A stretch of 64,000 nt of DNA, taken from Cristatella mucedo. Taxonomy: Eukaryota; Bryozoa; Phylactolaemata; Cristatellidae. Location: positions 2,009,001 to 2,073,000 of the forward strand of contig WPIO01000010.1 of the NCBI GenBank assembly GCA_009760855.2, read 5' to 3'. Positions 4,466-60,625 of this stretch are shown piece after piece. The notes under the pieces were generated by a model. The model saw only the letters and a program-made list of their open reading frames with translations. It was not told where the DNA came from and searched no databases. The position numbers and the translations under genes are program-made. Within the stretch, counting starts at the first letter, position 1, and each line of letters opens with the position of its first letter.

Positions 4466-6480
4466 TGTCAGTCACACGGATCATGTCACATGATCATGTC
4501 ACACGGATCAGGCCCACTTCTTTGCTGGCTGGTAAGGAAGCAGAAGCCAACTCTGCTCTCCTCCCGGATCTGCCGAGTTCAGTAGCAGTTGCTCCGACAG
4601 CTTGCTCAACAAGACAGCGGGAGATCCGTCATTTGCTGCGCTCCGCAATTCTTCTCCCGAAATGCACCGCTGGCTGCCTCCACGCTGACCTCCTCCTTAA
4701 ATCGGCTTGGAGGGGGAGACAGGACCCCTGCAAGTGGCATACGGGTCCTGGATCTTGGCTTGCACGGCAATGCAGAGGGGCAGGCACGGCCGCCAGGCGT
4801 GATTTTCGCAGACATTCGCTATGCCACGCGAAAGACGCAGACTAAACGAACAAAGGGCATACAATTCAAATCCAAACGCAATTTACACGTTGTGACCGAA
4901 GAAAATCCTGCGATTATCAATGCCACGCTGACAGGATATATATTCTTTACAGTATATGAGCACTTTGACGGGGCCGTGACCGCTCTAGTGCCGCGAACTC
5001 ACTACAAGTTTAAGCATAACCACTGTTGATGTAAGTTGCTGTAAGTTGCTGCTTTTCTTCTTCAGAAAAGTTCAAGGATAACGAGGCGTGGCTCACAGAT
5101 AGAGCTCGAGGGAGTAAAGCTTCCTAATTGCACGCTGCTTACGCGACCTAGGAACCAAATTAACTGTAGCCTTGCGACATGCTAACAAAATACATTTTCA
5201 AATAATCAGTCGCCGGCAGCCTAGGAGCAGCGTGAGCTAAAAACTGCTAGATGGGCACCTAGCCTAAAGATTTGACATCCTTTGTTGATTCAGCCGACTA
5301 ACGGGATACGGCCAGCGCACAGAAAAACCCTCAAAGGCTGCTAGCTATTTCACCTGTCACGCAGCGACAGCGATGATTGAGATTTTCTGATCTTGGCTGA
5401 CATTAATCGCAGAGCTGTCACCACCAACGGTTTGCTTGCTAGCCCCCGCCTATTCCAACGGTGAATCATACATGATTAGTTCGATCAAATGAGCCGGCAG
5501 GCGTTGGCGTGATTTATTTGCATTCGGTGCCAGCCACAAACGCCTGCTTTAAAGGCTTGTGGGTTGCGAATTTTGAACCGCTCACGGCAGCAGCGGACGT
5601 AAGCTTACTCTTGGCTAACGTAGTCCTCAAGGCAGGCTTCACTCTAATTCGATTAGAGAGTATAATATAATTCATTTGCAGAGAGCCCTAGGAGAACTTA
5701 ATCTCTAGCCCAGGCGCTTCGCATATGCCTTTACAACGACTTCGACTTGACTTGTCATCTAAATTCATTTCTCTGTTCCGGCATACTGCTGCCGTGACCG
5801 TGTCATGTTTTAATACCCTCAAGTACGTATCACTATCTAGAGTGTCAGCAGGTGCTATTACTTGATCACTGTTGCAGTGGTGCTATAATCTCTACCACAC
5901 TGGCTGTTGAAGCTCTACATAGATTCGGGAAACTTTCATCAGCTCCGTTCGAAAGTTCCAAAAATGCAGTGTTTCCAGGACGATTTCGCAGCCAATAGCC
6001 GGCAGAGTGAGCGGGCTGACACCCCTCCTGCACAGTGCGTCGTGTTGACTGTTGACATTTCGTTTGCTATCGGTGTCTAGCCTTAAAAGTAGCCGGCAGA
6101 ATGCAACTCGTGCCTACTGAAACCACAAATATCCTTTCATTGCTCGAGTTACAGCTAAATTGTTCGATTTGAAAATATTGAGCCAATGATAGTTTTTTTT
6201 TCCAAAAGCTAGACTTTGAGCCGAGGCTTTGCAGCGAGCTGAAGTGAAAGCCCGCGATATTGCACAGCCAACCGCATGTGGTAGGGTTTGGCTTGATAAC
6301 CCTCGAGGAAAGAAGGGACTCTCAACCAAGCGTTTTAACACTTGAGAAGGTTCATATGCCACTGAAAATTGACTTTCAGATGTACGCATAGCACCAAGAT
6401 ACGCAGGTACGCCGACAGCAGTAGGAAGGCGGCAGCGACCAAAGATCGCCCTCATCTTAGCATAATAAGTCCATATCCAT
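4466..6480. other. No recognisable gene
   Basis: Unassigned frames (4589-5029 +, 6114-6455 -) carry no motif I can identify. Low-copy GATCATGTCACACGGATCA repeats occur at 4466-4510. Confidence 0.4.
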
Positions 6481-9821: not shown

Positions 9822-9948
9822 TTAAATTGGTCCAGCGGATAAGGTGATAGCCCCAACTAGGTCTGGCTGAGGTCATGGGCTCGAGCCCCAAGGCATAGCT
9901 CCTGAATAGAGATTAAGTTCTCTTGGGACACTATACAGATACTAATAA
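9822..9948 (+). repeat. SINE-2 copy (tRNA head, LINE-A-like 3' hairpin)
   Basis: The A box reads TGGTCCAGCGGATAAGGTG and the B box GGGCTCGAGCCCC. The 3' end TAGAGATTAAGTTCTCTTGG then GACACTATAC matches the LINE-A tail hairpin. It ends beside a large (TA)n array. Confidence 0.85.
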
Positions 9949-14180: not shown

Positions 14181-14189
14181 CCAGGGGTC

Positions 14190-14325
14190 AAGGTGCTAGC
14201 TCATCGCTCAATCAAGGTCAAGGTGAATTTATTTGATGGCCGAGGTCACGGGCTCGAGTCCCAAGGCATATATGAAGCACCTAAATAGAGATCAAATTCG
14301 CTTAGGGCGCTACATAAATGAATTA
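14190..14325 (+). repeat. SINE-2 copy
   Basis: A head with AAGGTGCTAGCTCATCGCTC, a B box GGGCTCGAGTCCC (near 14251), and a tail AAGCACCTAAATAGAGATCA then TTCGCTTAGGGCGCTACATA. It aligns with the copies at 9822 and 60478. The A box is eroded. Confidence 0.8.
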
Positions 14326-14596
14326 TAGGCTTCAACACCCGCTTACAGCTTACATGGCTGATCTTACTGGACTAGTACCACTTTAGTACAGGGATATTCC
14401 GGGCGGAGTTTTGTAGGAGCACATACTCCGAACGTGGCCAGAATTTTAGCATTGGCCTAAACTTCGTCTAGCATCAAGCCTACGCTGCCACTCGGAAGAA
14501 GGAACATGCCGACAACAAGTCCACGACGAGGCACTTCTTTCCAACAGCGCCAGCGGTGAGCATAAACATGGCCACACTCCACGGGGCGGATTATCA

Positions 14597-18399: not shown

Positions 18400-19147
18400 C
18401 GGTCTGTGACGCAAAGGTTTTGGTCAATACCGCCATGGCCGTTTTTGGCGTTCGCGCGCGCGCAGTGCAGCTATCGCCTTCGAGGGTTGCGAAAAGCTTA
18501 TTCGAATGGAGCGACGGAGTGGCTGGAGCGACGGGTAGTGCCGATTTATCTCCCTACCTGAGCGTGGTCGCTACTCCTCTCCTGCTCTTTTAAGAGACGC
18601 CGCAAAGCGTCCCCCTTGCCAGCCACGTGACCTGCCTGGCTGGCCGCGCTGGGTGCGCCGGCGGCGCAAGTGCGGACGAGACCGTCGCGCGCGACTGGGC
18701 TGGCGCTCCGCGGGTTGTTATCGGAGCGACGGGAGTGGAGGCTCGCAATATTTGACCAGCCCCCCTTCCAGCGGCCCCCACCACACCGCTAGCCGACGAA
18801 TTCTTGCTGTTGAGGTTGCCAGAATTAGGGCGCGGCAGCTGGAATGTTCTCGGTGCCTGTCGCGCTTTCGCTGCAGGCGCCGCGCGAGCAGGCGCCGGGC
18901 GACTGGGCGGAGCGACGCTGGCAGTAGGCGACGAAGACTTCGGAGGAGAGCGCCCGGCCGGACTAGGCGCGCGCGCGGGTGTCGTTTCGCCGGCGGGCCT
19001 CGCCTTGACCCCTCGCTTTGCCGCTCCATCGTACTCGGACGGACGTCAATCGCGCCCGACCGCAGTCAGACAGCGCGCACCTGACGCAGCTGCAACGTCC
19101 CGGCGTCCTCGGCGGCTGCGTCGGCTCCCTCGATACCGAGGCCGGCG

Positions 19148-19203
<56 letters not shown>

Positions 19204-19462
19204 TGATGAGCGTTTTATTTTTAGCCACCGCGAGCTGCCTCGTTCGGCGGCGCGAAGCTGCGTCAGTCGCCGGGCAGCCTTCCACGCCGCAGCCGTGGCC
19301 CATTTCGACCCGTTCTCGCTCGCCGCGCAGGGATACTCCGATCTCGGTCGCTCTTCTGATTTCGACGCATCCGTCGCCGCCGCCGCCGCCGTCGTCGCCG
19401 CCGCCGCCGTCACCGCCGCTCGAGCTAGAGGTGACGATCTCTCCCGGACGTCGTCGCCAGCC
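18400..19462 (+). promoter_or_regulatory. CpG-rich upstream region of GPCR 1
   Basis: Base composition turns strongly GC- and CpG-rich here and stays so through the gene, as in CpG-rich promoter and 5' regions. A TATA-like TTTTAAGAG is at about 18587. No start site can be fixed from sequence alone. The open frame runs back to 19295 but contains no ATG before 19463. Confidence 0.4.
19151..19203. repeat. (GGC)n trinucleotide repeat
   Basis: About 17 uninterrupted GGC units in the probable 5' leader of GPCR 1. It could form G-rich secondary structure in DNA or mRNA. Confidence 0.95.
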
Positions 19463-20620
19463 ATGCACTGGCCACCGGCGGCGACCTGGCCGATGCCTCC
19501 TATGGTGGCTGTCGCAGACGGCGCCGGCGGCGGCGGCGCACATCGCCAGCGGACGGTCGAGCCGTCGCGACTGGAGACGAAGCAGGGCACCGGCGGCGGC
19601 GGCGGCGGCGGCGGCAACTCGAGCTCCGATTACCCGCTGCCGTTCTGCAACGAAAGCTGCGCGAGCGTGACCGTGCTCGTCCTGTCGAGCCTGCTGTCGG
19701 CGATCGCGGTGACGATAAACGTGTGCGTCGTCGTCATCATTCGCCGAACGCCCGAGATGCGCCGCCAGCCGTACGGTGTGCTCACGGTCAACCTGTGCGC
19801 CAGCAACGTGCTCGCGTCGCTCGTGCAAGGAGCGCTGAGCAACTCGGTCGCGCAGACCGGCGTTAGCTACAGCCTGACTGGCTGCTACGTCGGCGAGGTT
19901 GCGTACTCGGCGACGACGTTCGTGTCTCTGACCACTATGACGGCGATGTCGTTCGACCGCTTCCTCGGCATAGCGTATCACCTTCGGTATGCGACCGCCG
20001 TCACGCCGCTCAAATACGGCTTTTTCGCACTCCTGCAGTGGCTCGTTTGCTTCGCCCTCGGCGTCCTGCCGGTTGTCAAGGAGGGCGTCGGATGGTGCGT
20101 GCGCCGCTTCGGCGGCTGCAGTTACGTTCGCAGCGGCTACGTCATTTGGATTCACACGATCGTCGTATACGCGCCGTGCACTCTGCTGATCCTCTACTCG
20201 TACGTCCGCATCTGGATAGTGATCCGGCGGCTGACCCAAGGCGCGACTGACGACCGGAAAGAGCATGGCCGCGGCATCCGGACGACGCTCATCATCCTAA
20301 CGGCATTCGTCGTGACCACACTGCCGCGCTTGATAGTTGCTTTGGCGATGTACCCCAGCGCCGGCGTCGTCGGCGCAGAGGCGACCGATGATGTCAGAAA
20401 CGCTTTGGAGGACGCGACGTCTCTCTTTTTAAGCTGCAACGCCCTCGCGAGCCCGATTGTCTACAGTCTCACAAATGGGACTTTTAAGGATCGCCTAACC
20501 AGAATTGCGTCGGAAAAGTGCGGTGTCTCATCGAGCCCAGGAGATCGCTGCCCAGCACCACCAGCTGGTCACTCCCGGCGAACACTCGGGGGTGAAGGTT
20601 CTTGCTCTCCCAACCAGTAG
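19463..20620 (+). CDS. Class A (rhodopsin-like) G protein-coupled receptor 1
   Basis: A single-exon frame of 385 residues from the first in-frame ATG (context CCAGCCATGC). The extracellular N-terminus is Gly/Ala-rich with Asn-glycosylation sites (NSS about 52, NES 63) inside a short C-N-E-S-C loop. Seven membrane segments are visible: about 67-92, 104-124, 147-170, 186-205, 225-250, 274-296 and 315-336. Family marks seen: N86 (1.50), C141 with an ECL2 Cys (212 or 219), D165-R166-F167 at the end of TM3, W193 (4.50), P238 (5.50), P288 (6.50) and P331/Y334 in TM7. Oddities: N115 in place of Asp 2.50, T286 in place of Trp 6.48 and S330 in place of Asn in NPxxY. Ligand unknown. The cytoplasmic tail is about 45 residues. 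It is a paralogue of the gene at 44761. Confidence 0.92.
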   Translation: MHWPPAATWPMPPMVAVADGAGGGGAHRQRTVEPSRLETKQGTGGGGGGGGNSSSDYPLPFCNESCASVTVLVLSSLLSAIAVTINVCVVVIIRRTPEMRRQPYGVLTVNLCASNVLASLVQGALSNSVAQTGVSYSLTGCYVGEVAYSATTFVSLTTMTAMSFDRFLGIAYHLRYATAVTPLKYGFFALLQWLVCFALGVLPVVKEGVGWCVRRFGGCSYVRSGYVIWIHTIVVYAPCTLLILYSYVRIWIVIRRLTQGATDDRKEHGRGIRTTLIILTAFVVTTLPRLIVALAMYPSAGVVGAEATDDVRNALEDATSLFLSCNALASPIVYSLTNGTFKDRLTRIASEKCGVSSSPGDRCPAPPAGHSRRTLGGEGSCSPNQ

Positions 20621-32241: not shown

Positions 32242-32350
<109 letters not shown>

Positions 32351-32449
32351 CAATACATGTGATATAGCACCCTCAGAGGACTCATTCTCTTTCTATGCAC
32401 TTTACATTTGCTGCACAGGAAGCACGATCGAATTGTTAGTGGTAGCATG

Positions 32450-36283: not shown

Positions 36284-36392
36284 ATTGTAATAATAATAAT
36301 ACACTTGACATAGTGCCCTCAGAGAACTCGATCTCTTTCTAGACACTTTACATTTGTTGCAAAGGAAGTACGATTGAATGGTTAGTGGCTAA
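36284..36392 (-). mobile_element. LINE-A 3' tail fragment
   Basis: (AAT)n at the left end, then GACATAGTGCCCTCAGAGAA and TCTCTTTCTAGACACTTTAC. This is the reverse complement of the LINE-A tail hairpin, extending only about 100 bases before the match is lost, so it is a severely 5'-truncated copy. Confidence 0.85.
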
Positions 36393-37149: not shown

Positions 37150-37990
37150 CAAAATTTGGGCCTACTGAGAATAACACATCCAACAAGTCCATACATTTTC
37201 GGGGACATCCGTCTCGAATTCTGAAGCTTACTACTCGCAGGTTTTTTGGCTAGTGCAATATGGATTTTGCAGTTGGTGTATAACTCTGCAGCTAGGCTTG
37301 TGTGTTTTGAACGTTGAAATTGCCGCATTTCAACAGCTCTCATCCGCCTGCACTGGCTCCCTGTAAAAAAAGCGTATGGACTTACAGATTCTGTGACTGA
37401 AGTTCAGGCCCCTTACTACTCTTGCTCCAGCCTGCTTATCGGAACTACTTCACAACTAGGCTAGACTTCATACCAGCCGCTTTCTGAAACAAGTCGTTTA
37501 GCTTTGCCTCGAGCCAATCGCAAATCCTTTGGAGACCGTATCTTTAGTCCCCATGCTTTCTAAAGCCTTGAACTCATTACCGACTGACGTTGCAATATAT
37601 TCTGACATGCCAACATTCAAGAGAAAGCTAAAACCAGACCTGTTCATTACAGCATTTGCTGGATCCTTGTGAATAGTCTTTTGTATGCTTATGCGTGCTG
37701 ACACTGTTCGCTCGATCACTGAGCAATTAACATGCTTAAATATAAATACCAGCTGACTATAATAACGAATATATGAATATAAATAACAGCCTCTTTTGTA
37801 TATAGACAGAAGAGCCTTCACGATTATCACTACCGCATGAAGTGGCAATAACGGATCGCCCACTGCAGGATTCGACGCCATGACTTCGGGACCGAGGTCG
37901 TGCAAAGCAACCGCCTTACCTAGCCTGCCATGACGGCTTATGCTTCATTTGCAGCATATGTGAAGTGCCTTAGAAGGAGATTTAGTTATA
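37150..37990 (+). pseudogene. LINE-A RT C-terminal relic with 3' tail, split by a SINE
   Basis: It carries CTGCAGCTAGGCTTGTGTGT, TGCACTGGCTCCCTG, CAAATCCTTTGGAGACCGTA and the 3' UTR GCTTATGCGTGCTGACACTG, in LINE-A order with many stops. The tail hairpin (GTGCCTTAGAAGGAGATTTA) resumes at about 37960 after a minus-strand SINE-1 at 37755-37935. So the SINE went into an existing LINE-A 3' UTR. Confidence 0.8.
37755..37935 (-). repeat. SINE-1 copy nested in LINE-A 3' UTR
   Basis: Its reverse complement gives an A-box region TGGCAGGCTAGGTAAGGCGG, ACCTCGGTCCCGAAGTCATG, a B-box region GGCGTCGAATCCTGCAGTGG and the SINE-1 body with GAAGGCTCTTCTGTC. The 3' end is followed by AT-rich sequence and then by LINE-A 3' UTR. 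Confidence 0.85.
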
Positions 37991-38180
37991 TTGGGTCGCG
38001 ATGCAACTGTTTTATAGTTATTATTAGCATTAGCTTAACTTACGCAGCCTCATTGTATCCTTTTGATTGTCACAATGTGGCAATGTACTCCTGCTGGTTA
38101 TCTCCAGCTGGTGCCACAGTGAAGTAAGATTAAGCGATTCACACAGTGAGCTATTAGGCGCGACGCAAAAAGACACGAAC

Positions 38181-40065: not shown

Positions 40066-40067
40066 CG

Positions 40068-40258
40068 AATAATAATAAACTTGATATAGCGCCCTCATAT
40101 AACTCAATCTCTTTCTAGGCATTTTACGTTGGCTGAAAAGAAAGCATGATCAAATGGTTAGTGGTAGCATGCTCAATGACAGTAAGCATAGCATGGTTAG
40201 GGGTGGAATGCACAGGGTCAGCATGCAAGTATTGTTAGTGGCCGCACGCTTGGTATAG
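40068..40258 (-). mobile_element. LINE-A 3' UTR/tail fragment
   Basis: (AAT)n, then TTGATATAGCGCCCTCATAT, TCTCTTTCTAGGCATTTTAC and GTTAGTGGTAGCATGCTCAA, as in the LINE-A tails at 36284 and 49960. No RT remains. Confidence 0.85.
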
Positions 40259-44434: not shown

Positions 44435-44760
44435 CCAGAGCCTGCTGCCCGCTCGCCGGCAGACCGTGAAGCCACCTGCACGCGACACGATCAACAGCCG
44501 GGTAGGCAGTGCGTGATCAAGGCATCAAAGGTGACTAGCACCGCCGCTGCTGCCGCTTAGTGCTCGCGGCAGTCAGCCTGCGCCAACCTTAACGGCGCCT
44601 GCGAACCCTTTACTACTTAACCCTTAAGCCTGCGAGCTCTTCTACTCTTGAGAAACTCAGCCTCGTCTTCGCTTTTAGCGAGGTTCTTATTCTCTCAGGT
44701 TTGCCAGCATCTGATCGCACAGAAGGCATTATCCCTTTCTCCCCGGAGCTTCAGATCAGC

Positions 44761-46008
44761 ATGCTAGATAACGCGACTGCGACTCAGCCGCCTACGCTCA
44801 TGGCCGCCGTCGGCGCATTCGTCGGCGAATTCGACGGTGCATTCGGCGGCACGCCCGGCGGCACGTCCGGCGGCGCGTCCGGCGGCGCATTCGGCGGCAC
44901 GTCCGGCGGCGCTTCGTCGACGATTGAAACCTTACGCGTGGCTAAGGGCACGATCGACGACCCGCTGCCTTTCTGCAATGGCAGCTGCTCCTGGACTGTC
45001 GTATTTGCCATCTCGGGCATCATTTCGATAGCTGCCGTCGCCGTGAATGCGTGCGTCATCGCCATTATCCGGCGGACGCCCGAGATTCGAAAGCAGCCGT
45101 ACAGCGTGCTCATGGTCAGCATGTGCGCCAGCAACTCGCTGACCTCTCTCGTGCGCGGCGTACTTAGCAACTGCGCCATGCAGACGCTCGTCAGTCGCTC
45201 GCTGCCCGGATGCCACGTCGGCGACATCGTCTACAATACGACGACGTTCGTGTCGCTGACGACCATAGCGGTCATGTCGTTCGACCGCTTCCTCGGCGTA
45301 GCGTACCACCTGCGCTACGGCGCCTTGGTGACGACGCGCAAGTACGGCATTTTCGTCGTCGTGCAGTGGCTCGCTTGCGGAGTGCTCAGCGCTGCGCCCG
45401 TGATCACCAAGACGGACCTGTATTGGTGCGTCCGCCGCTTCGGAGGCTGCAGCTACTCCAACAGCGGCTACATCCTGTACGTCCAATCGGTCGCCGTGTA
45501 CGTGCCCTGCGCATGCGTGATGCTCTTCTCGTACGCACGCATCTGGATGGCGATCCGAAGGCTCTCCTCGCGCGCGGCCTCCGCCCCCGACCGGAAGGAG
45601 CGAAATCGAGGCATCAGGACGACAGTCATCATCTTGTCGGCTTTCGTCGTCACGACACTGCCGCGCATCATCGTGGCCTTTGTCATGTATCGCAACACGG
45701 GCGGAATTCCGAGCCGTCGTGACGACGTGGGCAACGGAGTGGAGGACGCCACGTCGCTCTTCCTCAGCTGCAACGCGCTGGCCAGTCCTATAATCTACAG
45801 CCTCACGAACAGGGCGTTCAAGGAGCGCCTGGCAAGGCTCTCGCAATCGGCCGCCAGAAGGCGTTCGCTCTCGAGTGTCGACGCAGCGCCTTGCTCGACG
45901 CCCTCGTCCGGCAGCACGTATGTGCTGAGCAAAGAGCAGCTGAAGCCCCCCGTAGCCGAAAGCCAAAGCATGAATGGATGCTCTGGGAAGAATAGAGTAT
46001 CAGAGTAA
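44761..46008 (+). CDS. Class A (rhodopsin-like) G protein-coupled receptor 2
   Basis: A single-exon frame of 415 residues from the ATG at 44761. The frame is open upstream to TTG 44701 but has no earlier ATG. The N-terminus is about 75 residues with NAT and NGS glycosylation sites and a low-complexity GGTSGGASGGAF-type run (26-52). Membrane segments lie at about 77-102, 114-134, 157-180, 196-215, 237-262, 287-309 and 328-348. Conserved marks: N96 (1.50), C151 with an ECL2 Cys (223/230), D175-R176-F177, W203, P249, P301 and P343/Y346. The same departures as in GPCR 1: N125 at 2.50, T299 at 6.48 and S342 at 7.49. The C-tail has about 60 residues, rich in Ser and basic residues, with probable kinase sites. 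Ligand unknown. It is a same-strand paralogue of 19463-20620. Confidence 0.92.
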   Translation: MLDNATATQPPTLMAAVGAFVGEFDGAFGGTPGGTSGGASGGAFGGTSGGASSTIETLRVAKGTIDDPLPFCNGSCSWTVVFAISGIISIAAVAVNACVIAIIRRTPEIRKQPYSVLMVSMCASNSLTSLVRGVLSNCAMQTLVSRSLPGCHVGDIVYNTTTFVSLTTIAVMSFDRFLGVAYHLRYGALVTTRKYGIFVVVQWLACGVLSAAPVITKTDLYWCVRRFGGCSYSNSGYILYVQSVAVYVPCACVMLFSYARIWMAIRRLSSRAASAPDRKERNRGIRTTVIILSAFVVTTLPRIIVAFVMYRNTGGIPSRRDDVGNGVEDATSLFLSCNALASPIIYSLTNRAFKERLARLSQSAARRRSLSSVDAAPCSTPSSGSTYVLSKEQLKPPVAESQSMNGCSGKNRVSE

Positions 46009-47223: not shown

Positions 47224-47285
47224 CGATTGCCAAGCACAAGATTGGCTTTCGTCTCCATTGATTCGTTCGTTCAGCTAAAATAGCT

Positions 47286-48686
47286 GTGCCACTCCGGGGC
47301 ACTTCGATCTCTCCACGTCTTCAGCGCCTTAACTACTCTAAACTCCTTTTAACTCCCGGGAGGCTTGTATTACCAACATCCGCACTTAAGACTGGAACCT
47401 ATTTGAACTCGTATATCGAAACCTCACACCTTGCTAGTAAGTTCCAGTCTGGCTTTAGAGCTAATCACTCCACAGAGTCAGCATTGCTTCGGGTATACAA
47501 CGACCTACTTAGGAATGCAGACATGGGTAGAGTGTCTCTTCTTGTTTTGCTCGATCTTTCGGCAGCTTTTGATACCATCGATCACAAAGTACTTCTAGAG
47601 CGCCTCTCATCTCGCCTGGGCATCACTGGCACTGCTCTGCAGTGGTTCAGGTCCTATCTCAGTGGGAGACTCCAGAGTGTTGACGTGAATGGACAAAGAT
47701 CATCTGAAGTACCTCTAAAATATGGAGTACCTCAGGGCTCTGTGCTAGGTCCGGTCCTTTTCACCGTTTATACTCTCCCTCTTGCTGATGTGATTGCCAA
47801 GCACAATCTAGGCTTTCACTTCTATGCGGATGACACTCAGTTGTACCTTTGCTTTGATCCCTCCCAGCCTTCGAGCACCTCAAATTCTCTCAACTCACTT
47901 GCTGCATGCATTGATGACATCCGATCATGGATGGCAGCAAATTTTCTAAAACTAAACGATGATAAAACTAACTTACTAGTTATGGGCAAACCTAGTGTTA
48001 TTCAGAAATTGGAAAGGCTGACTTTCAAAATTGGCTCTGCCAGCATATCTCCAGTTGCATCAGCTCGAAATCTAGGTGTCATATTCCAAAGCGACCTCTC
48101 GTTAGACGACCTTATCAGCTCCACAGTCAAATCAGCCTATTTTCAGCCTCATAACATTGCTAAAATTAGGGCTTGTTTAGATAAGGATACCACGTCCAAG
48201 TTGGTCCATGCATTCGTGACATCTCGTCTCGACTTCTGCAACTCACTGCTTACTGGCCTACCAGCATGTGCGATCAGGCGATTGCAGCTGGTGCAAAACT
48301 CTGCAGCTAGGCTTGTCTGTCGTGAGCGTCGCAGTTGCCACATTACTCCACTTCTCGCCGACCTGCACTGGTTACCAGTCAAGCAACGGATTGACTTCAA
48401 GGTTTTGTCGCTCACTTTTAGGTCTCTTCATTCTATGGCTCCAGCCTATCTTTCAGAGATACTACCCCATCAGGCAAAGCATCGTACCACTCGCTTTTCG
48501 GAATCCAACAGTCTACAAATACCTCGTACAAACCTTAAATCCTTTGGAGACCGTGCATTTAGCTCGTGTGCTCCCAAAGCCTGGAACTCCCTCCCGACCT
48601 GCATCAGAACATCCCCTGACCTGACCACATTTAAAAGAAACTTAAAAACATACCTATTTAGGACAGCATTTAGTGGGTCCTTGTGA
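47286..48686 (+). CDS. LINE-A reverse transcriptase, 5'-truncated open frame
   Basis: An uninterrupted 466-codon frame of which LINE homology starts near 47400 (NSYIETSHLASKFQSGFRAN). RT blocks are intact: VLLDLSAAFDTIDHKVLLER (motif A), KYGVPQGSVLGPVLFTVY (B), FHFYADDTQLYLCF (C, catalytic Asp pair), FLKLNDDKTNLLVMG (D) and SARNLGVIFQSDLSL (E). Then come the conserved C-terminal LADLHWLPVKQRIDFK, CAPKAWNSLPTCIR and TFKRNLKTYLF. This wording places it in the CR1/L2 group. The endonuclease half is missing, so it cannot move on its own, but the lack of stops indicates a recent insertion. The natural start codon lies outside this copy. Confidence 0.9.
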   Translation: MPLRGTSISPRLQRLNYSKLLLTPGRLVLPTSALKTGTYLNSYIETSHLASKFQSGFRANHSTESALLRVYNDLLRNADMGRVSLLVLLDLSAAFDTIDHKVLLERLSSRLGITGTALQWFRSYLSGRLQSVDVNGQRSSEVPLKYGVPQGSVLGPVLFTVYTLPLADVIAKHNLGFHFYADDTQLYLCFDPSQPSSTSNSLNSLAACIDDIRSWMAANFLKLNDDKTNLLVMGKPSVIQKLERLTFKIGSASISPVASARNLGVIFQSDLSLDDLISSTVKSAYFQPHNIAKIRACLDKDTTSKLVHAFVTSRLDFCNSLLTGLPACAIRRLQLVQNSAARLVCRERRSCHITPLLADLHWLPVKQRIDFKVLSLTFRSLHSMAPAYLSEILPHQAKHRTTRFSESNSLQIPRTNLKSFGDRAFSSCAPKAWNSLPTCIRTSPDLTTFKRNLKTYLFRTAFSGSL

Positions 48687-48922
48687 TTCTTCCTTGATGT
48701 GCTTATGCGTGCTGACACTGTTCATGCTGCCACTAACCACATTTGCATGCTGACCCAGTGCATGTAACCCCTAACCATGTTATTCATTTTGTTTGTTTTT
48801 CAAGCATGATTTTACTTACTATTCTATTGCGTATCACTTTGCAGCAAATGTAAAGCGCCTAGAAAGAGATTAAGTTCTCTGAGGGCGCTTTATCAAGTGC
48901 AATATTATTATTATTATTATTT
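47395..48922 (+). mobile_element. LINE-A copy, best preserved, 5'-truncated
   Basis: The element contains the RT frame above and a 240-base 3' UTR with GCTTATGCGTGCTGACACTG and CATGCTGACCCAGTGCATGT. The terminal bipartite hairpin is at 48852-48891: AAAGCGCC/GGCGCTTT outer stem, AGAGA/TCTCT inner stem, TTAAGT loop. It is followed by (ATT)n. The other LINE-A relics in the window align to this copy. Confidence 0.9.
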
Positions 48923-49190
48923 CCTCAAACTGATTGGCAAAGAGACCAGCTTAATACTTATGGGGCACACCTAGTGTCAGTCCTTGTGGATCAACGCAAG
49001 AACTTTGCTCTGTATCCGTCGGTCAACCGGCTGCCATCCTAGCCCTTTCACCAAAAAGGACACGTGATCAAACTTCTAGAATTTATAAACTAGCCTTGCA
49101 GCCGTATTTCTCGCCAGCTGCAGTAGCCTCGTGGTTTTTTCGGTATCGCATCCAAAAGGGAATTAAAAAAATCCAGCTCAAACAGAAACA
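48923..49190. other. No recognisable gene
   Basis: Unassigned spacer. Confidence 0.5.
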
Positions 49191-49954: not shown

Positions 49955-50417
49955 CAATGGTAATCATATACTTGATAAAGCGCCCTCGGAGAACTCATTC
50001 TCTTTCTAGGCGCTTTACATTTGCTGCAAAGGAGACACGATCGAATGTTAATTGGTACCATGCTTGATAAACAACATGAATAACATGGTTAGCGGTGACA
50101 TGCACAGGGTCAGCATGCAATTGTGGCTAGTGGCAGCACGCAACAGTGTGAGCACGCATAAGCACACAAAAAACGAAACGAATCACAAGGACTGACTAAG
50201 TGCTGTTATAAATAGGCGCGTTTTTAATTTCTTTTTAAATTTGATCAAGTCAGGGGATGTCGTGACGGAAGTCGGTAGTGAGTTCCAGGCTTTGGGAGCA
50301 TACGAACTAAAAGCACGGTCTCCAAAGGATTTGAGGTTTGTACGAGGTATAGTTAAACAGCTAGATTCCAAAAAGCGGGTGGAACGATGCTTAGCCTGGT
50401 GGGGCAGCAGATCTCAT
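49955..50417 (-). pseudogene. LINE-A 5'-truncated copy: RT C-terminus and tail
   Basis: The tail hairpin (GCGCCCTCGGAGAACTCATT, CTCTTTCTAGGCGCTTTAC) is at the left end. The minus frame 50371-50183 reads SSCLTIPRTNLKSFGDRAFS, SYAPKAWNSLPTSVTTSPDL and KFKKKLKTRLFITALSQSL, with no stop. It is truncated near 50417. Confidence 0.88.
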
Positions 50418-52221: not shown

Positions 52222-53035
52222 ACCACTTCAGCTCCACAGTCAAGTCGGCCTACTTCCAGATACATAACATTACTAAAATTCTGGCTTGTTTAGACAGGGA
52301 TACCACATCTAGAGTGGTCCATGCATTTGTGCCATCCAGTCTTGACTTCTGCAACTTAGTGTTTGCTGGTCTACCAGCCTATGCACTCAGGTGGTTTCAG
52401 CTGGTGCAAAACTCTGCAGCTAGGCATGTCTGTCGTGAGCGTCACTGTTGCCACAAGACAGCACGTCTTGCAGACATGTACCTGCTACCAGTCAAACAAC
52501 GCATCGACATCAAGGTTCTGTCACTCACATTTAGGTCCCTTTATTCTTTGGCTCCAGGATATTTATCAAATCTACTCCTCCACTCGGTTGAGCAGCGTTC
52601 CACTAGCTTTTCGGAATCTAATCATGTATCTATAATTCATACGAACCTCAAATCCTTTTGAGACCGTGCCTTTAGTTGCTTCGTATGGTCCCAAAGCCCG
52701 GAATTCACTTCCGACTTGCGTCACGAAATCTGACTTGACCAAATTTGAAAAGAAGCTAAAAACACATCTATGTGTCATGCCATTTAGTGACTCCATGTAA
52801 TCCGGCCTCTACGCGCTTATGCGTGCTGACACTGAGCGTTCTGCCACTAATCATATTTGCATGCTAGCCTGTGGATGCCACCCCTAACCATGTTATGCAT
52901 GTTGTCATTGAGCATGTTCCCTCTAACCTCGATCGTGCTTCATCTTTAGAAAATATTAAGTACCTAGAACGATATTGAGTTTTCTGCGGTGGGCGGGGGA
53001 GCTATATCAAATATATTATTATTACCATTATAAAT
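52222..53035 (+). pseudogene. LINE-A RT C-terminal relic and tail
   Basis: The frame 52314-52661 reads LQ-type VQNSAARHVCRERHCCHKTA, MYLLPVKQRIDIKVLSLTFR and YLSNLLLHSVEQRSTSFSES, then a TGA stop interrupts NLKSF-DRAF. The 3' UTR (GCTTATGCGTGCTGACACTG, CACCCCTAACCATGTTATGC) and a decayed hairpin follow, and the copy ends (ATT)n at about 53020. Confidence 0.88.
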
Positions 53036-59058: not shown

Positions 59059-59084
59059 AATTAATACAAATGTATAATTTGTTT

Positions 59085-59240
59085 GTATGACGCCCAAAGA
59101 CAACTAAGCCTCTAATCAGGCGCTCCAAATATGCCACGGGGCTCGCTCGACCCCACAACCTTGGTCATCAAATAAATTAGCCCTGACCTGCGTTGTTAAA
59201 TACGAGCACCTTAACCGCTGGGTTAAACCATTGCAATTCG
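59085..59240 (-). repeat. SINE-2 copy
   Basis: The reverse complement has the A box TGGTTTAACCCAGCGGTTAA, AAGGTGCTCG, a B-box region TGGGGTCGAGCGAGCCCCG and the tail GGAGCGCCTGATTAGAGGCT then TAGTTGTCTTTGGGCG. Confidence 0.8.
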
Positions 59241-60477: not shown

Positions 60478-60625
60478 TATGCCGAGCTGGTTTGGTCCGA
60501 CGGTTAAGGTGCTCTCGCCCCGACCAAGGTCAAGGCTGAGGTCGCGGGCTCGAGCTCCGAGGCACATGCGAAGCGCCTGAATAGAGGCTAAGTTCTCTTG
60601 GGGCGCTATACAAATTAGTTATTTA
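60478..60625 (+). repeat. SINE-2 copy, best preserved
   Basis: A box TGGTTTGGTCCGACGGTTAA with AAGGTGCTC, B box GGGCTCGAGCTCC, and the tail hairpin at 60572-60607: AGCGCC/GGCGCT outer stem, AGAG/CTCT inner stem, loop GCTAAGTT. It ends CTATACAAATTAGTTATTTA. Confidence 0.88.

Follow-up and report, generated by a model that had tools for sequence, protein, structure and literature searches.

A young SINE of Cristatella mucedo shares its 3' hairpin with LINEs and, as sampled, lies nearest in that hairpin to an old LINE type

Results

Retroelements of the window

The stretch of DNA examined here ('the window') comprises 64,000 nucleotides of the Cristatella mucedo genome (C11:2009001-2073000), which was searched over 572,011,866 bases and 688 contigs. 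BLAST searches within the window recovered copies and tails of two retroelement families, termed SINE-2 and LINE-A. The window also contains two long open frames on the + strand (44593-46005 and 19085-20617) with matches to Pfam 7tm_1, the G protein-coupled receptors of rhodopsin type.

A young LINE-A copy is located at 47262..48925 (+ strand). It is 5'-truncated inside the reverse transcriptase (RT) and consists of a 474-codon frame with an RT domain, followed by a 3' untranslated region (3'UTR), a hairpin and an (ATT)n repeat. The open frame (47262-48683) matches the RT domain family RVT_1 (6.7e-25), and L1 and R2 proteins are among its 12 matches to solved structures; we take the element to be L2/CR1-like. 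Its tail hairpin (48852..48891, + strand), located both by reading the sequence and by BLAST, has exactly the two-step stem described in the original prediction. LINE-A-type tails that had been noted near 32355, 36284, 40068, 49960 and 53000 are likewise real. Four of them, all on the − strand, were found by both BLAST and a tail profile (32348..32411, 36288..36356, 40067..40133 and 49955..50024), while the fifth (52952..53027, + strand) is older and carries an insertion in its hairpin. A further decayed, LINE-A-related tail that was absent from the earlier list (37954..38025, + strand) has GCATATGTGAAG ahead of its stem, as in SINE-2.

The structure of SINE-2 can be followed in the copy at 60478..60624 (+ strand; BLAST match 60478-60620), which is composed of a tRNA-like head, a LINE-type tail and an A/T repeat. 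Three older copies are found at 9822..9940 (+ strand; BLAST match 9827-9940), at 14182..14327 (+ strand, with its start placed by eye; BLAST match 14238-14319) and at 59072..59220 (− strand, with its 5' end placed by eye; BLAST match 59145-59082), so that within-window BLAST recovered all four of the copies predicted near 9822, 14190, 59085 and 60478. A SINE-2-type tail with no recognisable head, also new relative to the earlier list, is present at 5664..5728 (− strand; BLAST match 5730-5674) and was classed as '?'.

Both families extend well beyond the window. A SINE-2 query against the genome gave 40 scored places among 4,053 first-look candidates, of which the 39 others are 89-95% identical to the query; SINE-2 thus exists as many dispersed copies. 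The LINE-A 3' end gave 40 scored places among 881 candidates, with five other copies at 99-100% identity. For each family, 20 of the 39 other matches were fetched and aligned. The window and fetched loci (279,651 bases) were scanned with the tail profile as a sample for incidental copies, yielding 193 places after removal of opposite-strand duplicates: 102 at the bait places of the loci and 91 incidental. The sampled flanks lie near elements of the SINE-2 or LINE kind, and we therefore state no copy number. Nineteen of the incidental tails are SINE-like, comprising 13 SINEs and 6 doubtful cases (one of them more LINE-like).

Several local arrangements were seen in the course of these searches. 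Four identical LINE-A-type tail matches occur at steps of ~1,490 bases at G000:C19:557133-561638, resembling a tandem array, and four more at steps of ~14-14.5 kb at G000:C183:64178-107217, where the series is perhaps a long tandem duplication. At G000:C592:1207673-1208005 (L169), three SINE-type tails ~150 bases apart form a local tandem array within an AT microsatellite. Six SINE copies (L088, L093, L098, L100, L102 and L105) have the junction TGCAGCATATG instead of GAGGCATATG, resembling the TTTGCAGCATATG of the LINE; this may mark a small subfamily or reflect chance variation, the search pattern itself having required TGCAGCATATG. Elsewhere in the assembly, the COX1 frame of contig C688 has AGR, ATA and AAA where serine, methionine and lysine, respectively, are the expected COX1 residues, a codon use as in the invertebrate mitochondrial code, which suggests a protostome or similar invertebrate as the host. 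COX1 fragments on contigs C166, C83, C549 and C299 (G000) are probably nuclear copies of mitochondrial DNA.

The head of SINE-2

The original prediction described the head of SINE-2 as being of tRNA type. Using the consensus of the pol III A and B boxes as a pattern, we located an A-box-like motif (60493..60503, + strand, one mismatch) and a B-box-like motif (60547..60557, + strand, three mismatches) in the copy at 60478. Both boxes are present in 13 of 20 SINE-2 heads at a spacing of 50-54, an outcome found in 0 of 1,000 shuffles. ARAGORN called no tRNA in the 20 copies or in the whole window, and Rfam gave no tRNA match in 8 SINE-2 copies; the 4 Rfam matches obtained in SINE-2 copies are all in one locus (L014), largely within its AT microsatellite. 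The description of the head is therefore borne out by its pol III boxes but not by either tRNA-finding method, and the boxes and their spacing suggest an origin from a tRNA to which no isotype was assigned. Target-site duplications, assessed in 19 of the 20 copies, gave a mean shared word of 5.6 versus 5.1 after permutation, which is inside the permuted range.

A two-step hairpin shared by SINE-2 and LINE-A

The tail of the SINE-2 copy at 60478 forms a two-step hairpin (60572..60607, + strand), in which a 4/2 internal loop separates a 7-bp outer stem from a 5-bp inner stem closed by a 6-nt loop. The consensus tails of SINE-2 and LINE-A have one folded core in common, with these same dimensions in both, and differ in the pairing beyond it. 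The two consensus tails align over ~80 columns, including the A/T repeat, with a score of 78, as compared to 28 or less for 1,000 dinucleotide shuffles of SINE-2. That a LINE and a SINE in this window have a 3' hairpin in common, as originally proposed, is thereby confirmed. A stretch this short and palindromic, ending in a simple repeat, might be thought prone to convergence or chance likeness between A/T-rich palindromic repeats, but the shuffles rule this out as an account of the likeness. The two tails also have in common their loop and an asymmetric internal loop, and the lineages align across the entire tail; we regard a fortuitous resemblance as vanishingly improbable.

In the genome, a 35-base tail pattern matched 19,954 places (10,042 + 9,912) with up to 2 mismatches, and a reversed control matched 0. 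Most of the places that we read are LINE tails, and about 7 of 30 listed loci are SINE variants, as judged by eye. In the tail-profile sample the hairpin occurs in LINE-A copies of several ages and in a decayed type, LINE-B. Rfam, which contains a family for the UnaL2 3' element, returned no family in the window at the gathering threshold; with E-values up to 10, the LINE-A and SINE-2 stretches gave only three snoRNA matches, all at chance level (E 1.4-5.7) and all outside the hairpins. The relation of SINE-2 to LINEs through a shared hairpin is real, and of an already known sort.

Covariation within the stem, which had been suggested as a check, lends the hairpin mild support. Among 59 incidental LINE copies we counted 17 double-change cells, compared to a shuffle mean of 6.8 (reached in 9 of 500 shuffles), and among all 78 LINE copies 23 cells, compared to 16.4 (reached in 31 of 500). 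The most variable stem pair is C-G, which is also found as U-G and U-A. The signal seen in incidental LINE copies was not above chance in LINE-B (4 cells; reached in 268 of 500 shuffles) or in SINE-2 (2 cells; 286 of 500), for which the set was 18 copies, with the LINE-like L100:2956 retained. We set covariation aside as a deciding test, given the weakness of the signal and the unconstrained decay that dead copies undergo.

LINE-B and the origin of the SINE-2 tail

LINE-B is a decayed type with GAGTTGTAAAG ahead of the stem and an internal loop of GGAT/TA. A pattern for its tail matched 36 places in the genome, at least one of which (L117) is a SINE; 20 were fetched and, with L117 dropped, 19 were kept. 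Upstream of two of these copies (L112 and L115) there is sense-strand likeness to the LINE-A protein (53% across 74 residues in one case, 41% across 103 in the other), and in the 300 bases read upstream of most pattern-found copies there is no such similarity, the other matches being on the opposite strand. It is these two copies, and a 3'UTR that may be aligned to that of LINE-A with many gaps, that suggest LINE-B to be a LINE.

Because the first pattern had included the hairpin, a second search for LINE-B was made blind to the tail, with 256 bases that exclude the hairpin. This search scored 39 other places among 467 candidates, from which 20 were fetched; a tail was matched at E<0.01 in 19 of the 20, in two cases weakly, and L142, which gave no tail, was left out. 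Five columns distinguish LINE-A from LINE-B, and at every one of them the resulting LINE-B consensus agrees with SINE-2, its majority base being supported by 12 of 18, 12 of 18, 15 of 19, 14 of 19 and 16 of 19 letters. Across 45 core columns, the SINE-2 consensus differs from the tail-blind LINE-B consensus at 3 and from the young, incidental and old LINE-A sets at 7, 8 and 7, respectively, the old set being the remainder after sorting on upstream motifs, which may mix lineages. (Two copies that sorted as LINE-B on these motifs and look like LINE-A, L110:2697 and L069:630, are in neither the incidental nor the old set.) LINE-B was nearest to the SINE-2 tail in 1,000 of 1,000 bootstraps. Among 17 incidental SINE copies it was also nearest to 16 and tied for 1, in a set that omits two of the 19 SINE-like tails (L100:2956 as LINE-like, L051:2685 for an E-value above 0.001). 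The hairpin at 60572..60607 itself matches the LINE-B consensus at 39 of 44 columns, compared to 34-35 for the LINE-A sets.

These comparisons bear directly on the original prediction, which had LINE-A as the partner whose tail SINE-2 carries. In the genome-derived consensus, the 3' end of SINE-2 fits a different LINE better, an outcome that the prediction itself had named as refuting it, and LINE-A as the source of the tail is not supported by the copies sampled. Over the 12 columns 3' of the hairpin, SINE-2 differs from old LINE-A at 1 and from LINE-B at 3, and LINE-B is therefore not the exact donor. The donor would have been LINE-B-like in its hairpin, and was perhaps an ancestor common to the lineages or an unsampled sister.

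Relative ages of the families

A comparison of insertion ages, also proposed earlier, showed that SINE-2 and LINE-A overlap. The Kimura two-parameter (K2P) distance of incidental SINE-2 copies to the young consensus is 0.03-0.39 (median 0.173, n=15), and for LINE-A copies of the incidental set it is 0.02-0.29 (median 0.172, n=25). Two SINE-2 copies (L020 and L023) are identical over 126 nt while lying on different contigs with different flanks, and pairs of LINE-A copies reach identities of 99.6% (251 columns) and 100% (238 columns), with gaps left out (L044 falls to 94% when they are counted). The best LINE-B pair, also with gaps left out, is 70% identical over 269 columns; local BLAST alignments between LINE-B copies reach 84.5% over 97, around the tail by which the copies were chosen. 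LINE-B copies are at K2P distances of 0.132-0.246 from their own consensus (19 copies), and the tail-blind search, in which 39 other places were scored from 467 candidates, gave 81% as its best match. As sampled, SINE-2 and LINE-A have young copies and LINE-B has none; LINE-B looks old and apparently dead.

Candidate helpers of SINE-2 at present

The loop of the youngest LINE-A is UUAAGU in 16 of 19 young copies, the same as in the SINE-2 and LINE-B consensus sequences. In 47 other LINE-A copies, a set made up without those from the LINE-A 3'-end search, inclusive of pattern-found ones and ordered by divergence to the young LINE-A consensus, the corresponding loop base is G in 26, A in 13, T in 4 and C in 2, with 2 gaps; all five of the youngest have A, and the eight further copies with A are older. 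The internal loops differ (GAAU/UG or UA in SINE-2, AGAA/GA in LINE-A), as does the 3' flank of the youngest LINE-A, and the internal-loop difference may be relevant to recognition. LINE-A-type upstream sequence followed by an [AG][AG]AT internal loop occurs at 91 exact places, 83 with A[GA]AT and 8 with G[GA]AT, and all 8 of the latter lie behind SINE upstream sequence.

The SINE hairpin with non-standard upstream sequence is found at 83 places. The 48 that were read (18 of them chosen for their un-SINE-like upstream) consist of 33 SINEs, 12 tails only and 3 tails in or behind LINE-A, and none of these 48 has a BLAST match to the LINE-B 3'UTR. Across the pattern searches for LINE-B tails, LINE-A upstream sequence and non-standard SINE tails, we saw no young LINE with the SINE-2 internal loop. 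Three loci in which a SINE tail sits within a LINE-A tail or immediately follows one (L170, L171 and L156) were considered as proof of template switching and rejected in that role. L170 is apparently a SINE tail nested within a LINE tail, L171 is a tail behind the repeat of a young LINE-A, and for L156 the remainder of the LINE tail is absent in the 361 bases fetched downstream; L171 and L156 are ambiguous between a nested insertion and a template jump.

For zebrafish L2 LINEs, a published study (PMC4176376) describes the loop as deciding recognition and the stem as exchangeable. Given this rule and the SINE-2 loop found in the youngest LINE-A, LINE-A is a plausible helper, and by analogy its youngest subfamily probably now serves SINE-2. 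The single G-to-A change in the LINE-A loop may also be a coincidence. The proposal that LINE-A is the partner of SINE-2 thus fails, as sampled, with respect to the origin of the tail, where LINE-B is nearer; with respect to present help it may hold, the young inner stem and loop being alike.

Discussion

SINE-2 combines a tRNA-like head with the 3' hairpin and A/T repeat of one LINE clade of the same genome. The hairpin would serve the reverse transcriptase of a LINE as a handle for gripping the RNA and beginning target-primed reverse transcription; this recognition by the protein we infer. The donor of the tail itself would have been not LINE-A but one of its relatives, near to LINE-B. LINE-B would have stopped long ago while SINE-2 kept copying, and the likeliest current helper would be the youngest LINE-A subfamily, with its identical inner stem and loop (AGAGA-UUAAGU-UCUCU). 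We favour this reading as a whole (a tail from a LINE-B-like relative on a SINE with a tRNA-like head, a LINE-B that ceased long ago, and the youngest LINE-A as helper) with moderate confidence.

Two other accounts of the mobilisation of SINE-2 deserve to be weighed against it. That LINE-A both donated the tail and has been the mobiliser throughout would fit the hairpin common to both, their overlapping ages, the young LINE-A copies with an identical inner hairpin and the 3' flank of SINE-2, which is nearest to old LINE-A; we nonetheless judge it quite improbable, since the core of SINE-2 is more than twice as many columns from each of the three LINE-A sets as from LINE-B, and since the G[GA]AT internal loop, where sought behind LINE-A-type upstream sequence, turned up exclusively with SINEs. 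A LINE with a LINE-B-type tail might instead be active yet rare, and itself mobilise SINE-2, which would account for a young SINE whose hairpin is still LINE-B-like. Set against this are the 36 places with that tail, none within less than 2 mismatches of the 41 positions and with no exact repeats among them, the ceiling of 81% identity in the 3'UTR search over the scored places, and the 48 of 83 non-standard SINE-tail places that lack a LINE-B 3'UTR. A rare active LINE of this kind seems to us unlikely, if conceivable.

Under the favoured reading, with its LINE-B-like tail donor and young LINE-A helper, a more specific course of events can be imagined. SINE-2 may have outlived the donor of its tail with that tail unchanged, as the youngest subfamily of a sister LINE came to match its inner hairpin, including the loop (UUGAGU to UUAAGU). 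We put this forward tentatively and consider it rather doubtful; if true, the helper was handed over through a change in the LINE and not in the SINE.

By accepted practice, the LINE serving a SINE is recognised by a tail common to the two. In SINE-2 that sign points to an old LINE though the SINE is young, and the genome therefore provides a natural experiment on the degree of tail mismatch that the enzyme of a LINE tolerates, and on whether the loop, the internal loop or the stem of the hairpin is decisive. The case also carries a caution, in that a LINE adjoining a SINE within one window is not necessarily its partner. The main point is that of a young SINE carrying the tail of an old LINE.

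The closest likenesses are with the L2-clade stringent LINEs UnaL2, with its eel SINE partner UnaSINE1, ZfL2-1 and ZfL2-2, where a LINE 3' hairpin is likewise common to a SINE and the extreme 3' end is likewise a simple repeat. The hairpins described here differ from that of UnaL2 in being without an Rfam match. The repeat differs as well, being TGTAA in UnaL2 (PMC3747384) and (ATT)n in LINE-A. Loop-specific recognition has been published for ZfL2-1 and ZfL2-2 (PMC4176376). A survey by Ohshima, as recounted in PMC3747384, lists 58 SINEs with 3' ends in common with LINEs; as in those pairs, the 3' end of SINE-2 is that of a LINE, but the nearest LINE found for SINE-2 is old while its sister LINE is young. 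The available portion of PMC6685494 contains no closer precedent. According to the Squam3 paper (PMC7983390), SINEs cease once their partner LINE family or subfamily becomes inactive and can be revived by swapping the recognised sequence; SINE-2, by comparison, kept its tail and stayed active.
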